A stretch of DNA of 62,735 nt from a virus. Shown here piece after piece: positions 637 through 46,753 of the stretch. The DNA lies in IMG/VR virus record IMGVR_UViG_3300042448_001551, positions 1 to 62,735 of that record, one strand, 5' to 3'. Numbering within the stretch: the first letter of the stretch is position 1; the number at the start of each line of letters is the position of its first letter. Made by a program: the position numbers and the translations under genes. The notes beneath the pieces were generated by a model that saw nothing but the letters and a program-made list of their open reading frames with translations, made no database searches and had not been told where the DNA came from.

Positions 637-1604
637 TAGTTTATTTTTTTGTCCAGTAAAGGTACTAACTTTAAACAAACTTCTCGTGCACCAAAATCTT
701 TTATAGAATCTGAAGGATCTTTACTCATAGGTAAAATAGTGCATTCTATTGTAGGATACATTTCTTTATACTTTTTCATAGCTTTAACTCCAGGTTCATC
801 ATTATCAAATAACATAACTATTTTTTCATATTTGTCTAAATAGTTTTGCATTACATCATCAGGAATTAAAGTGTTCTCTGAGTCTGGAGCAACTATATCC
901 ACTTTAATTTTTAGACTTTTTAAAGACATTATATCTTTTAAACTACTAGTTATTACTAAAAATCTATTATGTTTAGTTTGTTCTGAGCCTTGAATATAGT
1001 TATGAATTTTTATAAACTTTTTATCTTGAGTTTTCGGTTGATATATTTTATATAATGTTCCGTCTTTTTTAAAAAAACCATAAATATATAACCCACTGAT
1101 TGTCAACACTTTATCTTCGTCTTTTCTTAAAGTGTAATAACTTAAAGGAAAAACATTATGTTCTTCTAAAAGTCTTGATCCTATATTAAACTGAGTCCAA
1201 TAATATTGATCTTGAGTTGTCCAAATTCGTTTGCTATACGAACTCACTTTATATTTTGAATTTTGTTTAAATTCTTGAACATCATAACCTCCATTATTAT
1301 GTAAAACATAATCATTATATGTTTCAACTATTATTAAACATGCTTTATGAAAATCACATCCTCTAAGTTCTTTAATAAAATCAATATGTGTACCTCCTTT
1401 TCCAGAAGAAAAGTCTTTAAACTTATATGTTTGTGTTTTAGAATCTACATAAATACAAAGACTAGGAGTTTTTTCATTAGTAAAAAAGCTTTTTATTTTT
1501 ACATCCTGACCTGTTAATTTCTCAGGAATTCCACCAAAGAACTCAAAAACCCATGTAGCTGGGACATCTTTTACATTATGAACTAGGTTTTTTGTTTTAA
1601 ACAT
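636..1604 (-). CDS. DnaG-type primase with TOPRIM domain
   Basis: A 322-residue protein with a CHC2-like N-terminal half (FFTNEKTPSLCIYVDSKTQT, then FKDFSSGKGGTHIDFI), which in DnaG primases precedes the TOPRIM fold. The TOPRIM DxD is visible as MLFDNDEPG with DND at 267-269. The zinc-binding cysteines expected at the extreme N-terminus are not visible, so it may bind template differently or be a reduced primase. It sits downstream of SSB-like, Sak4-like and DnaB-like genes, after a hairpin terminator, and would prime lagging-strand synthesis with the helicase. Confidence 0.85.
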   Translation of the reverse strand: MFKTKNLVHNVKDVPATWVFEFFGGIPEKLTGQDVKIKSFFTNEKTPSLCIYVDSKTQTYKFKDFSSGKGGTHIDFIKELRGCDFHKACLIIVETYNDYVLHNNGGYDVQEFKQNSKYKVSSYSKRIWTTQDQYYWTQFNIGSRLLEEHNVFPLSYYTLRKDEDKVLTISGLYIYGFFKKDGTLYKIYQPKTQDKKFIKIHNYIQGSEQTKHNRFLVITSSLKDIMSLKSLKIKVDIVAPDSENTLIPDDVMQNYLDKYEKIVMLFDNDEPGVKAMKKYKEMYPTIECTILPMSKDPSDSIKDFGAREVCLKLVPLLDKKIN

Positions 1605-4061: not shown

Positions 4062-5093
4062 TTATATAATATTTGGTTGTTGAGACGGTAATTGTAAACC
4101 ACCACTACCTTTTTTAGACGGTGGAGGACCCACTTCAGCCATTCTTTGTCTTCTACCATCCATCTTTAAAAAGATTATGTTTTCATCACTATCACTACCA
4201 TTTCTGATCTTAATAAGATGCATAAAAACATCCTCTGGACCACATACATATTGCTTAGGTCCATAAAATGGAATATTTGCTTTAAAGGGTCTATTTAAAA
4301 CACCTATCATATCAGAACCTTGCATTAATGCATCACCACCAAATATATCTGCGGATGTAGGATAGTTACCTATCTTTCCAGGTTCTTTCCTAGAAGATTC
4401 ATCTATGCTTCTATTTAGCTGTGTAATCATTAAAACAATAATAGGAATTTTGTTTTTGAGCTGCATAATCATTTCAGTGGTATTATAAAGAGTTTGGAGC
4501 TTTTCTTTCTCATCATTTCTCTTTTTAATTAACCAACTATGATCTATAGTTACAATCATTGGTTTAGCACCCCATTCTACATAAGCATCTAGAATGGCTT
4601 TTTCCATTTCTGTAGAAGTTATAGATTTAGAAATCAGTTCTCTCTTTAAACCAACTTTTTCCATAGCTTCACAATCAGCTATGTAATCTTTAAGTTGTTT
4701 AAGAACAAATCCATCTAACTCTTTTTTAGTACTTAGCATTTCACCATAGTCCATAGCCATATGACCAGCAAACTGTCTAGCAGCATACTGTTCATCTCCC
4801 ATTTCAAATTGAAATTCTAAAATATTAAAAGCTTGTTTAGGATTGATAACTCTAGCTTCTCTTAAAATTTGACTAACAATCATGGTTTTTCCTGCTCCAG
4901 GTCTAGCTCCTAATGTAAGCATAGAACCCCATTCTAAACCATCTACTCCTGCTTCATTAAAAGAAGCCCAAGGTGTTCTTAAAGATTGAATAATACCTTG
5001 TCTACGTTTATCTATGTAAGTGTAACCTTTTTTTAAGACCTCTGAGAAAGGTCTACGACCAAATTTGTCATCATTTATTTCTTCTGCTGCCAT
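4062..5093 (-). CDS. dnaB: DnaB-type replicative helicase (RecA core only)
   Basis: A 343-residue RecA-fold helicase with Walker A GARPGAGKT and Walker B MIVTIDHSWL, then the loop region around ITQLNRSIDE and FGGDALMQGSD, typical of DnaB/gp4-like hexameric helicases. At this length it lacks most of the N-terminal domain of bacterial DnaB, so loading probably depends on another factor, perhaps the next gene upstream. I start at 5093 (MAAEEIN) because an A/C-rich leader like those of the neighbouring genes precedes it. Confidence 0.85.
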   Translation of the reverse strand: MAAEEINDDKFGRRPFSEVLKKGYTYIDKRRQGIIQSLRTPWASFNEAGVDGLEWGSMLTLGARPGAGKTMIVSQILREARVINPKQAFNILEFQFEMGDEQYAARQFAGHMAMDYGEMLSTKKELDGFVLKQLKDYIADCEAMEKVGLKRELISKSITSTEMEKAILDAYVEWGAKPMIVTIDHSWLIKKRNDEKEKLQTLYNTTEMIMQLKNKIPIIVLMITQLNRSIDESSRKEPGKIGNYPTSADIFGGDALMQGSDMIGVLNRPFKANIPFYGPKQYVCGPEDVFMHLIKIRNGSDSDENIIFLKMDGRRQRMAEVGPPPSKKGSGGLQLPSQQPNII

Positions 5094-5136
5094 ATTGTGT
5101 TTTTGTGGTTTGTGAATCAAAGATACACATAATTTA

Positions 5137-5718
5137 TTAGATATTGTCTAAATTATCTGCATTATCTATTAAAAGTTGACAATAATCAGCCAAAAGAGAT
5201 TTTACAGTTTTGCTTTTAATATCTGTCTTTTGTATAAAATAACTACTTGTAGACATAAACTTAAAATCATCCTCTGTTTTCTTATAAACATAATAATAAG
5301 CAGCATCTATCACTTGTGTCCAGCTATACTCTGGATAGGTTTTAAAGAACCATATAAACTTGTCTTTTAATTCTTGTACAGACTGTCTAGCAAGTTCTCC
5401 TGAAGGAAGTCTTGTTGCTGGAAATAACTCCCTATATTTTTTAATATAGTCTAAAAAGTCACTACCTAGCACATCACTTGCCACTTTTTTCTTAGTCTTA
5501 ACAAGAAGAGTCTCAAAATCTTCTAATAAAACCAATGCTTTAGATGTTAAAGTTCCTGTAAGAGGATCTATAAATCCTTTAGCTTGACAAATATTAAACT
5601 CAGCATCTTCATTTATAATAAGACCTGGTTTTGTTTTTCTTCTACAACAATCTAATAAATAGAGTTGATTAGGACTGATATTGTGCTTCAACAACGTTGT
5701 CCAGAGCTGGTGTCCCAT
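5137..5718 (-). CDS. Uncharacterised protein, possible helicase loader
   Basis: A 193-residue mainly helical protein without a motif I can name. It sits directly between the DnaA domain IV-like protein (50-base overlap) and the DnaB-like helicase, the position where phages and plasmids often keep a DnaD/DnaT- or gp59-like loader. An aromatic-rich C-terminal region (YYVYKKTEDDFKFMSTSSYF, about residues 140-165) would suit a replication-initiation module. The loader role is an inference from position only. Confidence 0.5.
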   Translation of the reverse strand: MGHQLWTTLLKHNISPNQLYLLDCCRRKTKPGLIINEDAEFNICQAKGFIDPLTGTLTSKALVLLEDFETLLVKTKKKVASDVLGSDFLDYIKKYRELFPATRLPSGELARQSVQELKDKFIWFFKTYPEYSWTQVIDAAYYYVYKKTEDDFKFMSTSSYFIQKTDIKSKTVKSLLADYCQLLIDNADNLDNI

Positions 5719-24705: not shown

Positions 24706-24707
24706 GC

Positions 24708-24778
24708 GGTGTATGTTGGGACTCGAACCCAAATTTCATCCTCCCGTAGATGCGTACTAGCCTTTATACTACAAACAC
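24708..24778 (-). tRNA. tRNA-like gene with atypical anticodon loop
   Basis: On the minus strand the acceptor GTGTTTG pairs with CATACAC (one T-T mismatch), TA precedes a D arm (GTAT, loop AAAGGCTA, GTAC), and the T arm is perfect (TTGGG, loop TTCGAGT, CCCAA). The anticodon stem is CATC/GATG with an 8-base loop TACGGGAG, so no anticodon can be assigned in the standard way. No CCA is encoded. It may be a degenerate tRNA or one with an odd decoding loop. Confidence 0.6.
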
Positions 24779-24811
24779 CTTTGTGTTTAAGGTACACAAT
24801 TGGAAACCTAT

Positions 24812-32666: not shown

Positions 32667-32673
32667 ATAATAG

Positions 32674-32693
32674 ATTTTAATGATGACAAAATA
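32674..32693 (-). promoter_or_regulatory. Recurrent leader motif, copy 4
   Basis: Minus-strand TATTTTGTCATCATTAAAAT directly follows the terminator T-run of the large RNA and lies 8 bases before the ATG at 32666. Its match to copy 2 is 18 of 20. Confidence 0.55.
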
Positions 32694-32756
32694 AAAAAGC
32701 TGTAACAAGAGGTTTTACTAAGAGACATTGTCCTACTTAGTTACATTGTTACAGCT
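32692..32756 (-). terminator. Terminator of the large noncoding RNA
   Basis: AGCTGTAACA (minus; 32747-32756) pairs perfectly with TGTTACAGCT (32698-32707), with an inner ACTAAG/CTTAGT helix, followed by TTTTTTATTTT. A strong terminator directly after a gene-free kilobase implies an independent transcript. Confidence 0.93.
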
Positions 32757-33693
32757 GGATTTCTCAATCTTTGATTAATAGAATAAGTAATCAAGGATGA
32801 CCTTATTTCTAAAATGTCCCCTAAACAACAACATAGCTTGATTTAATGTTGTATAGGAAAATAATACAATATGTATTATTCCTTTATCAAAGATTGGGGT
32901 GTGTTCCTCATGCACTCAGTTGTAATATTACTACCGTGGAGATCAACCCACCCAACTCTATAGTTATATCATATTAATATAACTCCTATCCTCGTATTAT
33001 TACAAACTGTCTCATTCTTAGATTGATTAACTTTAATTACAGGCAATATTACCTTCCCCTACATAGCACCCACTCTATTGTGAGATTTATATGCAGATTC
33101 GTTTGTTAATCAGATCTTTTTACATCTTGGGAGCTGATTAAAACCTTACTACATCTAACTATATAGCAAGTTTATACATTCTTTACAGCTGGCATTTAAG
33201 GAGAATAGTTAGTTCTTAGCCAATACTGTGGTGTTGTATTATTAATCAGATGTCCCAAGAAAGAATGAATAGTGCATAAAGGAATAAGTTTTGTTTTAAG
33301 GACTCAAGGGTCGGTCAACCCTTGATTTATATTTTATAAAAATCTCATTGGAACTACACACGACCTGAATGTATAGCTAATGTCTCCACATCACCCCAAT
33401 AAGATCGACTCTATACTAACTTTTAGTATATCATCTGTTATCTGGTCCACCACAAACCAGGGAGAGAAATAGACGTGTGGTTTTTACGTCTACGAAACGG
33501 TTGTACCATTACTGGTCGTTTAACTGTTACCTCTAAGCTTAACCGTAAATTTAGAGATTCAGTGCTTGATTTTATAGTCTGCACTAACTTAGCATTACAT
33601 AGAAAGGAATGTTTATCTATGTTTAATACTCTCACCCTTATATGAGAGAACACTATAGTAGCCCCACAAGCTTGTCACAGTTTATTAATCCGT
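32692..33693 (-). ncRNA. Large ornate noncoding RNA, about 1 kb
   Basis: No plausible gene is seen in roughly 1,000 bases, in a genome that otherwise wastes no space. The stretch is full of strong stems: AATCTTTGAT/ATCAAAGATT (32766-32775 with 32886-32895); a 16-bp two-part helix (33125-33132 with 33253-33260, and 33134-33141 with 33242-33249); CTAACTAT/ATAGTTAG (33155-33162 with 33205-33212); TCAAGGGT/ACCCTTGA (33304-33311 with 33318-33325); a 10-bp helix with one wobble (33342-33351 with 33396-33405); plus many local hairpins. A terminator closes each side. Size, multi-stem form and phage location resemble ROOL and GOLLD RNAs. Family membership is not established. Confidence 0.8.
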
Positions 33694-33726
33694 AAAGAAG
33701 AAAGAGAGCCTTTTTACAGACTCTCT
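33694..33726 (-). terminator. Rho-independent terminator upstream of the large RNA
   Basis: AGAGAG (33703-33708) pairs with CTCTCT (33721-33726), followed on the minus strand by TTCTTCTTT. It ends the 33714 gene and sets the 5' limit of the large RNA. Confidence 0.75.
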
Positions 33727-33872
33727 ATTTTTTCTGTTGTAGTTATAATAATTTTGCTTACATACATAACATTGCATATAAGCTTATCATCCCCATATAA
33801 CTGCTCATCTTTTATCTCTATTTTTCTGTAAATAGAAGGAATTTCAGCAATTATAACAATAAATACAGACAT
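33714..33872 (-). CDS. Small protein, 52 residues
   Basis: The frame MSVFIVIIAEIPSIYRKIEI runs to ITTTEKIESL and stops inside the terminator stem at 33703-33726. It is preceded by another terminator (33891-33921), so it forms a one-gene transcript. Alternating Ile/Val suggests β structure. Function unknown. Confidence 0.6.
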   Translation of the reverse strand: MSVFIVIIAEIPSIYRKIEIKDEQLYGDDKLICNVMYVSKIIITTTEKIESL

Positions 33873-34539: not shown

Positions 34540-34622
34540 ATAAAGTTTTTAACAATTAAATAATATATAGCTATCTCATCCGCAAACTTGAATCCATTTT
34601 AGAGAGGTTTTTTAAACTAAAA

Positions 34623-34678
34623 GATAACGTGGAAGTGGTTCTATCACTCTCACCACACTGCGTAACTCCCACGTTATC
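34623..34678 (-). ncRNA. Structured spacer element
   Basis: GATAACGTGG (34623-34632) pairs perfectly with CCACGTTATC (34669-34678); inside, GTGGT pairs with ACCAC. It lies upstream of the 34318 gene in a spacer of 156 bases without another gene. Confidence 0.5.
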
Positions 34679-34695
34679 AATCAGTTATGAAGGGA

Positions 34696-34842
34696 TTAGT
34701 AAGTAATCACCACCATAACTCTTCTCTCACTTGTGTTCCACTTAATGAATGCACAAGCAAGTTGTCTGAACTTAGTCTTCATGGATGTATACCATGTTCT
34801 GAACAGCTCAAACGTTCTAAATGAAAGTCTTCTAGATTTCAT
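34696..34842 (-). CDS. Very basic small protein, 48 residues
   Basis: The frame MKSRRLSFRTFELFRTWYTS continues to KFRQLACAFIKWNTSERRVM and ends VVITY. Ten or more Arg/Lys with regular aromatic residues suggest an amphipathic helix that binds nucleic acid or membrane. It is short and flanked by noncoding sequence, so coding is likely but not certain. Confidence 0.45.
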   Translation of the reverse strand: MKSRRLSFRTFELFRTWYTSMKTKFRQLACAFIKWNTSERRVMVVITY

Positions 34843-34888
34843 GTTAGATTGTTTTAAGGGTTAGTAAATAAGAAAGCACAAGCAAGTT
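34751..34888. repeat. Direct repeat GCACAAGCAAGTT
   Basis: The 13-base sequence occurs at 34751-34763 and again at 34876-34888. The first copy lies inside the small basic gene, the second upstream of it. Confidence 0.6.
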
Positions 34889-34934
34889 ATTGTTATGGAT
34901 TATTATAACTTATAAGATGCTTGTACCTTCCTTT

Positions 34935-34960
34935 AAAAAAACAGAGGATTATTCCTCTGT
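34935..34960 (-). terminator. Rho-independent terminator
   Basis: CAGAGGA (34942-34948) pairs with TCCTCTG (34953-34959) with loop TTAT, followed on the minus strand by six T or more. It overlaps the stop of the 34949 gene. Confidence 0.93.
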
Positions 34961-41043: not shown

Positions 41044-41341
41044 ACCATTAAGTAGAGAATTTTTATTAAATAGAGGATATTGTTGTGGTAATGGATGTTT
41101 TAATTGTCCTTATAAAGAAAAAACAATAAATATGGCAAGAAGTATACATGATTATGTATTTCATTTTAACGAGTATACAAACCTTTGGAATGCTATTCCT
41201 AGAGAATTAATAAATGATTATTGGAATAAACCAAAAGTAAAAGGTGTTATTAGTTCTTCTAGAATTGAAGTATTAACAGAACTAATAAATAAAGTGGCAA
41301 CCGATGCCAATTTTTTAGATAAGATTAAACAGGATGAGTAA
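41027..41341 (+). CDS. DUF5522-type Cys-rich domain fused to a helical part
   Basis: A 104-residue protein. SREFLLNRGYCCGNGCFNCP at residues 8-27 matches the small Cys-rich domain (RGYCCGNGC.NCPY) known as a stand-alone protein in Bacteroidota genomes. The C-terminal 70 residues are unrelated and helical. This is a host-like domain captured by the phage. The start is either 41027 or 41033, both inside the PhoH gene end. Confidence 0.7.
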   Translation: MSMANKPLSREFLLNRGYCCGNGCFNCPYKEKTINMARSIHDYVFHFNEYTNLWNAIPRELINDYWNKPKVKGVISSSRIEVLTELINKVATDANFLDKIKQDE

Positions 41342-43538
41342 TTATAAAGAAATATATACATATGAAAATAATACTTGGAGCACCACTGTGTTTCAAACTC
41401 GTGAAGAATTTAGGGATTTTTTAATCCCTTTATTTATTGAGCCAGGTAAATATGATTTTGATGAGAATTCTTTAGTGTTTAATGAAGAGGGTAGGAAGTT
41501 TCAAAAACAAGGTTATTATTGCTCAGCTCCTTTTAAAACAAAAGATTTTATACATTATTGGGATTTACAAAAACATAAATGTAGGAATGGTATAATTGTT
41601 AAGAGTGGAGATAAAACCTGGTATATTACAAGAGAATATTATATGTGGTTAAACTTTCTTCCTATTTATGATAAAGAAGAAAAAAAGTTTGATTTTGCTA
41701 AAGTGAGAGATGCTCAGTATCATATGGCTCTTTATGAGCTTTTAGCTGAGCTTCATTATAAACATGCAGTTGTTTTAAAGAAACGTCAGATTGCATCTTC
41801 TTATTACCATATGGCTAAGTTTATAAACCATTGGGTATTTGAAGAAGGAGCTGTTTTAAAACTAGGAGCTAGCCTTAAAGATTATATTAATGAAAAAGGT
41901 TCTTGGAAATTTTTAGATGAATACCGTAATTTTTTAAACCAACATACAGCATGGTATCGTCCATCAGAACCTGATAAAGTGGGATCTTGGCAGCAACAGA
42001 TTAAAGTGAGGATAAATGGTAGAGACACTTATAAAGGTTTAAAAGGAACTATTAATGCTTATTCATTTGAGAAAAACCCAACTAATGGGGTCGGTGGTCC
42101 AGTAACTTATTTCTTTCACGAGGAAGCTGGTATTGCTCCTAAGATGGATGACACATATGGATTTATGAAACCAGCCTTAAAATCTGGTCATATGATCACT
42201 GGTCAGTTTATAGCTGCTGGATCAGTGGGTGATCTTGATCAATGTGAACCTTTAAAACTTTATATAGAAAGACCTGAAGAAAATGGATTTTATGGTGTCA
42301 CTTCTAATTTATTAGACTCTAAAGGAACTATTGGTGTAACAGGATTGTTTATTCCAGAACAATGGAGTATGCCTCCTTACATAGATAAATATGGTAATTC
42401 TAAAGTGGAAGAAGCTTTAGAAGCTCTTGAGAAAGAGTTTGAAAAACTAAAAAAAGACTTAGAACCTGCCGCCTATCAGTTAACTATTTCACAGTCTCCT
42501 AGAAATATAGAAGAGGCTTTTGCTACAAGGAAGCTTTCCATTTTTCCAAAACATTTATTATCAAAACAAATGCAACGTATACAGGATAAAGAATATCCTG
42601 TAGAGTATTTAGAACTTTCCAGAGATTCTAATGGGCAAATTGTAGATAAACCATCTAGAAAAATTCCTATTATGGAATTCCCTATTTCTAGAAAAACTGA
42701 GGATAAAGAAGGGGTTTTATGTATTTATGAAAGACCTCATAAAGATCCACCTTTTGGTATGTATTATGCTTCCGTGGATCCAGTGGGTGAAGGTAAAACC
42801 ACTACATCTGAATCATTATGTTCAATCTATATTTACAAAAATCCTGTTGAGGTTATTATTGATGATGGTGATGGTAAAGTGAAAAGTGTTATAGAAAGAG
42901 ACAAAATAGTGGCATCTTGGTGTGGACGTTTTGATGATCTTAATAAAACACATGAACGTTTAGAGATTTTAATAGAGTGGTATAATGCATGGACTGTTGT
43001 AGAAAACAACGTAGCTTTATTTATACAATACATGATTTCTAAAAAGAAACAACGCTATTTAGTCCCAAAAGACATGATTTTGTTTTTAAAGGATATTGGA
43101 GCTAATAGAAACGTATTCCAAGAATATGGTTGGAAAAATGTGGGCACATTATTTAAAGGTACAGTTTTATCCTATGGTATAGAGTTTTTAAAAGAGGAGT
43201 TAGACCATGAAACTAAAGCTGATGGAGAGATAGTAAAAACTATATATGGTGTAGAGAGAATCCCAGACCCTATGCTTTTAAAAGAAATGGATGCTTACCA
43301 AGATGGTTTAAACGTGGATAGGTTAGTTGCATTTTGTGCTTTAATAGCATTTGCTAAAATACAACAATCTAATAGGGGTTTAGTTAGACGGGTCGAGGCT
43401 GTAAAACAAAACTTGGATAAATCAAAAAAATTTAGTAAATTAAACTATAGCCCTTTTAGACATATTGGGGCTTCAACTATTTCTAAACATGGTGGTATGA
43501 CTGCCCCAAAAAGAAATGCATTTAAAAATTTTAGATGA
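41334..43538 (+). CDS. terL: Terminase large subunit
   Basis: A 734-residue protein, long for TerL as in crAss-like phages. The ATPase part shows KKRQIASS at 149-156 where the P-loop is expected (without GK[ST]) and Walker B TYFFHEEAG with FFHEEA at 260-265. The nuclease part has YYASVDPVGEGKTT (first catalytic Asp) and VVENNVALF (second acidic site). It translocates DNA into the prohead and cuts it. It overlaps the upstream gene by 8 bases. Confidence 0.92.
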   Translation: MSNYKEIYTYENNTWSTTVFQTREEFRDFLIPLFIEPGKYDFDENSLVFNEEGRKFQKQGYYCSAPFKTKDFIHYWDLQKHKCRNGIIVKSGDKTWYITREYYMWLNFLPIYDKEEKKFDFAKVRDAQYHMALYELLAELHYKHAVVLKKRQIASSYYHMAKFINHWVFEEGAVLKLGASLKDYINEKGSWKFLDEYRNFLNQHTAWYRPSEPDKVGSWQQQIKVRINGRDTYKGLKGTINAYSFEKNPTNGVGGPVTYFFHEEAGIAPKMDDTYGFMKPALKSGHMITGQFIAAGSVGDLDQCEPLKLYIERPEENGFYGVTSNLLDSKGTIGVTGLFIPEQWSMPPYIDKYGNSKVEEALEALEKEFEKLKKDLEPAAYQLTISQSPRNIEEAFATRKLSIFPKHLLSKQMQRIQDKEYPVEYLELSRDSNGQIVDKPSRKIPIMEFPISRKTEDKEGVLCIYERPHKDPPFGMYYASVDPVGEGKTTTSESLCSIYIYKNPVEVIIDDGDGKVKSVIERDKIVASWCGRFDDLNKTHERLEILIEWYNAWTVVENNVALFIQYMISKKKQRYLVPKDMILFLKDIGANRNVFQEYGWKNVGTLFKGTVLSYGIEFLKEELDHETKADGEIVKTIYGVERIPDPMLLKEMDAYQDGLNVDRLVAFCALIAFAKIQQSNRGLVRRVEAVKQNLDKSKKFSKLNYSPFRHIGASTISKHGGMTAPKRNAFKNFR

Positions 43539-46572: not shown

Positions 46573-46637
46573 TTATAGCTCTATTATCCATTAGTTAGGT
46601 TTTTAAAAATTACAAATTGTAAATTTTTAAAATTTAA

Positions 46638-46723
46638 GTTGTATATTAATAATGTAGATATATACAACATTAATAGACAGGATGATACACTGATCAGTAT
46701 ATAAAATATACAGGTGTGTCATC
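46638..46723 (+). promoter_or_regulatory. Hairpin-rich spacer before the scaffold-like gene
   Basis: GTTGTATAT/ATATACAAC (46638-46646 with 46660-46668) and GATGATACAC/GTGTGTCATC (46681-46690 with 46714-46723, one wobble) with inner GTATAT/ATATAC (46697-46702 with 46706-46711). The 180-base spacer has no gene and may hold a processing site or promoter for the capsid genes. Confidence 0.55.
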
Positions 46724-46753
46724 TGAACAGTCTATAAAAAACCCAACAAATAT

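Follow-up and report, generated by a model that had tools for sequence, protein, structure and literature searches.

A gene-free, structured block on the minus strand

The stretch of DNA analysed here (i.e. the window) is a virus record of 62,735 nt (62.7 kb) with a TerL gene at 41334–43538 (+) that matches phrog_6681 and whose product shows 23–26% identity to the terminases of crAss-like phages (i.e. gut, Flavobacterium and Cellulophaga phages). The largest internal gap in the window, of 1,047 nt, is gene-free and spans 32667–33713, and a possible small gene (an ATG ORF of 52 aa at 33714–33872 (-)) lies directly upstream. A preliminary description of this DNA had noted about 1,000 bases without a plausible gene. 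This was borne out, with no ATG ORF of at least 24 aa in 33699–32692 (-) and zero ATG-started ORFs of this size lying wholly inside 32760–33684 on the minus strand. The interval given at that time (32692–33693) covers a real gene-free block but misses the first bases of a ribozyme, which reach 33699. Read along the minus strand, the block consists of a hatchet ribozyme, a post-hatchet domain (PHD) of ~265 nt, an element of ~370 nt termed E2, a tail specific to the window, and a terminator; this anatomy is well supported. Elsewhere in the window, an intergenic segment after the portal gene (46573–46753) is structured and about 70–80% conserved in dozens of terminase relatives, and ARAGORN made one tRNA call, with an undefined two-base anticodon, at 24706–24779 (-).

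The minus strand of the block had an MFE of -284 kcal/mol, whereas dinucleotide shuffles gave -221 ± 7, which corresponds to a z of -9.4. Plus-strand folding reached a z of -6.3. When non-overlapping 1-kb stretches were sampled from the genome, the next best had a z of -7.8. Structure thus exceeds chance, and the minus strand is favoured. The individual helices described earlier are all present, i.e. a 16-bp arm of 8 + 8 bp (UCUUGGGA/UCCCAAGA and CUGAUUAA/UUAAUCAG, 33261–33243 with 33141–33124), a 10-bp helix (AATCTTTGAT/ATCAAAGATT, 32766–32775 with 32886–32895) and an 8-bp hairpin at 33304–33325 (TCAAGGGT/ACCCTTGA). Folding and homologues support the proposal of a large structured non-coding RNA on the minus strand of a Bacteroidota phage. 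The view of the block as one structured RNA region stands, but it had missed both the hatchet at the 5′ end and the make-up of the block as a mosaic of separate modules.

The sole point in favour of an overlooked protein-coding region is the ease with which small genes of phages escape detection. That the block is such a region is highly improbable: the unit holds no internal ATG ORF of the above size, the proteins encoded by relatives matched nothing in it significantly, and what separates homologous stretches is non-triplet indels and paired changes. Homologues show paired substitutions and not conserved codons, the outcome named beforehand as one that would speak against a structured RNA being conserved codons.

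A hatchet ribozyme at the 5′ end

A hatchet self-cleaving ribozyme (RF02678) was detected by cmscan at 33564–33699 (-) with a score of 74.1 bits (E 2e-13, gathering score 51) and a full-length match (i.e. positions 1–133 of 133 of the model). All of the core blocks (i.e. GACAA, UGUGGGGC, GUGCAGAC and UAAAAUCA) are present and the P1–P4 pairings can form; the alignment flags six non-standard pairs, and P1 (ACGG/CUGU) forms if one G-U pair is allowed. Cleavage by hatchet ribozymes takes place between a C and a U at the P1 base, and the downstream product carries a 5′-OH (PMC6154101). For the window, the predicted cut falls between 33697 (C) and 33696 (U), which would place almost all of the block in the downstream product. 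The hatchet of Rfam is known as an isolated ribozyme, whereas the window copy has a conserved downstream domain outside the Rfam model. No published role for hatchet ribozymes was found in the part of the literature that was searched.

The preliminary description had also placed a terminator at the 5′ side of the block, and a terminator-like hairpin is indeed located at 33703–33726 (-), ending beside the cut site. Hairpins adjoining the cut recur in many relatives. The 36 nt that directly precede the cut had a mean z of -1.5 across 33 dereplicated hatchet loci, as compared to about -0.4 further upstream, with cut positions set by a simple rule that leaves some off by a few bases. As the hairpin before the window hatchet resembles a terminator, it could stop the precursor, which counts against self-processing of the block. 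The motif GCGGATNNGATNGCTATA sits 4–5 nt before the hatchet cut in four relatives, where it might be a promoter; the cut would then take off no more than the initial bases of the transcript. In the window, this motif is found elsewhere than at the hatchet, at 34566–34583 (-), in the form GCGGATGAGATAGCTATA. It lies there within another gene-free structured gap (34540–34948 (-), z -5.6). The GCGGATGAGATAGCTATA motif occurs once or twice per relative and is possibly a phage promoter.

The post-hatchet domain

Pattern scans of IMG/VR yielded about 45 hatchet loci of the window type, most of which carry a domain of ~250–300 nt ending in a hairpin plus AGUCCUCA (22 of the 30 hatchet loci in the first set for this type of ending). 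In the window, the PHD spans 33297–33563 (-), has a z of -3.7 and ends in a hairpin plus its own version of this sequence, GAGUCCUUA. The copies closest to it, all with the same order of parts, were found in loci L002 (~480 nt aligned), L332, L366 and L210, and the stem of the last PHD hairpin (33304–33325 (-)) exhibits paired changes among these four. The named human-gut crAss phage cr6_1 (NC_055894.1) has a hatchet followed by ~260 nt, CGUCCUCA (CGTCCTCA) and then a gene. A reading of the AGUCC ending as P7 of a group I intron was rejected, as no intron model matched. In locus L106, a tRNA-like sequence and not an ORF comes after the PHD (651–789 (-) and downstream).

Neighbouring hairpins with complementary loops are present in most PHD copies. 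In the window these are hairpin 1 (33470–33492 (-)), with ACCAC in its loop, and hairpin 2 (33442–33460 (-)), whose loop GUGGU is proposed to kiss that of hairpin 1; both were located from per-sequence hairpins, with the coordinates of hairpin 1 obtained by counting. The loop pairs switch together between types (i.e. ACCAC/GUGGU, UUCCA/UGGAA and AUUCCACUU/AAGUGGAAU). The ACCAC/GUGGU match of the window alone is not significant, being reached in 16 of 100 shuffles, and the case for kissing loops therefore rests on covariation between types. Pairing was judged from hairpins of the individual sequences, as alignments A2 and A3 misplace hairpins between types. An exact-pattern scan with the sequence of hairpin 1 gave zero matches, the pattern having fixed a loop length that varies.

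The E2 element, tail and terminator

The long form of E2 occupies 32908–33279 (-) and was placed by homology to locus L232 (85% identity over 134 columns, nhmmer E 5e-22) and by its fold. The MFE structure forms the same three-way junction, with P1 (UUAUGCAC/GUGCAUGA), P2 (CAUUC/GAAUG) and P3 (CAGUUUGUAAUA/UAUUACAACUG) present as helices of 8, 5 and 9–11 bp, respectively, and the conserved TTACAACTGAGTGCA at 32925–32911. Long-form copies have two extra stems inserted into P2; the new 8 + 8 bp arms of the window, i.e. the 16-bp arm described above, form one of the inner stems within P2. The E2 of relatives comprises AAUGCACCA, a hairpin with loop UUCCCAAGG, CAGUUGUAAU paired to AUUACAACUG, and then AGUGCAGAGGG. 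In 42 short copies, double changes were observed at all five P2 pairs, with 98.8% of cells paired as compared to at most 53% when the strands were slid, and P1, P3 and a CCC/GGG pseudoknot were kept in the same copies. The window copy is missed by model R1, which was built from the short form only, indicating that this copy has diverged and that its placement depends on L232 and the fold.

A pattern scan for E2 gave at least 120 matches, and whole records of 60–127 kb usually contain one or two copies. E2 was co-directional with its neighbours in 78 of 90 and 83 of 90 cases. A role as a strict 5′ leader was rejected, since an ORF started within 60 nt in 36% of cases as compared to 26% at random positions, i.e. 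a weak tendency. Most E2 records lack a hatchet. Known ribozymes upstream of such hatchet-less copies amounted to one pistol ribozyme (RF02679; L287, 13780–13840 (-)), which precedes E2 by ~0.9 kb in the same orientation and lies near where a hatchet would be; pistol is absent from the window and from 49 other E2 records. At L287, and in this one case, a ribozyme may have been exchanged for another.

Downstream of E2, a structured, window-specific tail (32757–32907 (-), z -4.1) contains the 10-bp helix, and 32690–32900 has no similarity among the collected relative loci. A minus-strand terminator had been described at the end of the block, and an intrinsic terminator, recognized by eye and by folding as the stem AGCUGUAACAA followed by a T-run, is present at about 32692–32756 (-).

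Comparison with known RNA families

At a permissive setting, the hatchet was the sole family to exceed its gathering score in a cmscan of the block. The size of the block, its density of helices and its phage location resemble those of ROOL, GOLLD and OLE RNAs, to which it had been likened at the outset; ROOL and GOLLD RNAs measure 659 to over 800 nt (PMC12286853). Identity with any of the three was rejected, as no covariance-model match was obtained at the gathering score or at E ≤ 5, and the window RNA differs in that a ribozyme stands at its start and the modules of its mosaic also occur independently of one another. Group I and group II introns were rejected in the same way, with no intron covariance-model match even at E ≤ 5.

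RAGATH RNAs are the closest known kind. These are structured RNAs near self-cleaving ribozymes, and the window RNA is contiguous with a hatchet; in the gut phage records L380 and L381, hatchets have RNAs of the RAGATH-6, -7, -9 and RAGATH-7-associated types nearby. PHD and E2, in contrast, carry other conserved motifs, and the RAGATH covariance models had no match in the window (E ≤ 5) or in the E2 loci scanned. No published description of PHD, E2 or the other modules was found in a partial literature search, and the complete RNA had no BLAST match among phage records.

Modules bracketing exchangeable small genes

A homologue search of metagenomic sequences, as had been suggested, showed that both PHD and E2 recur with paired changes in dozens of contigs, most of which have a crAss-type terminase; the relatives are mostly metagenomic fragments. 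A homologue of the window terminase was present in 27 of 30 E2 or hatchet records. Relatives with a TerL 82–84% identical and records of 92–124 kb have neither hatchet nor E2. As these close relatives lack both and E2 often occurs without a hatchet, the modules are accessory and exchangeable. In some genomes, further recurrent modules (i.e. E1, E3 and E4) are found directly beside the hatchet or E2. The comparable units of the window (1,010 nt, 0 ORFs), L002 (~1.3 kb, 2 ORFs) and L332 (~1.75 kb, 3 ORFs) all contain, by position, a hatchet, PHD, E2 and a terminator. Two further loci were observed: in L336 (3955–5600 (+)), a hatchet is followed by ~1.4 kb without clear genes that contains a repeated structured unit, with a GGAGAT..GTAA..GGCAGCAGATGGACATTGT block present twice, and L196, a terminase relative, has six consecutive tRNA genes in a gene-free region upstream of TerL (4969–5433 (+)).

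The RNA modules are constant among relatives while the small ORFs between PHD and E2 differ. This pattern, together with the lack of ORFs and the strong folding in the window, would fit a free-standing large phage RNA with a function in trans (i.e. as scaffold, protein sponge or anti-defence RNA), similar to ROOL or GOLLD. The hatchet would then merely trim the 5′ end, and the small genes of relatives would be passengers inserted between domains. Other gene-free stretches of 0.9–1.5 kb upstream of E2 point in the same direction, as does a conserved non-coding RNA of ~700 nt, found in L310 (1345–2019 (+)), L162 (460–1453 (-)), L227 and L308, which ends 8 nt before E2 in L310. This RNA is 61–67% conserved and absent from Rfam, and it overlaps a tRNA in L162. 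Against a trans-acting RNA, Rfam gave no match to ROOL, GOLLD or OLE, and PHD and E2 occur in varied combinations, with E2 mostly lacking a hatchet, indicating that PHD and E2 are not one obligate molecule. We regard this explanation as possible but on the whole unlikely.

The genes of relatives sit exactly in the PHD-E2 gap, and in the window this gap contains an A-rich leader and an ATG open frame of only 11 codons. Together with the divergence of the window E2, these features could mark a remnant, i.e. leader or spacer elements of an operon that lost its small genes and are drifting without a role. Drift should, however, erode structure, and the hatchet core is intact, P1, P2 and P3 of E2 are kept alongside the new arms, and the block as a whole folds with the z given above. 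A drifting remnant is therefore improbable.

A proposed model of ribozyme-punctuated transcript processing

The interpretation that we favour, with modest confidence, is that 33699–32692 (-) is one self-processed RNA of ~1,000 nt and reflects ribozyme-punctuated transcript processing. Read-through from upstream minus-strand genes would generate a precursor, which the hatchet would cut at C33697/U33696, so that the upstream message would end in a 3′ hairpin. The released RNA would have a 5′-OH, with the folded ribozyme first and the terminator near 32692 last, and its body would consist of two independent modules, i.e. the PHD, in which two hairpins would kiss, and the three-way junction of the long-form E2. 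The gene slot of the window phage is empty, and the product would be a stable non-coding RNA that may be free-standing. As the modules bracket unrelated small genes in relatives, we infer that their general role is most likely the punctuation and stabilisation of transcripts (i.e. defined ends and a structured leader). A broader and rather speculative extension, which we consider more doubtful than not, is a Crassvirales class of large self-processed RNAs in which shuffled modules (i.e. a 5′ ribozyme, PHD, E1 to E4 and E2) surround exchangeable small genes, gene-free units have their own role in infection, and E2 is maybe an undescribed ribozyme or ligand-binding RNA.

The hatchet ribozyme gains from these data a recurrent setting in crAss-like phages, cr6_1 among them, with a hairpin often upstream of the cut and a conserved kissing-loop domain downstream, which makes transcript processing directly testable. 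PHD and E2 are structured domains that recur in many relatives and are in no RNA catalogue. E2, being widespread and with clear covariation but no Rfam family, is a concrete target for studies of structure and function.
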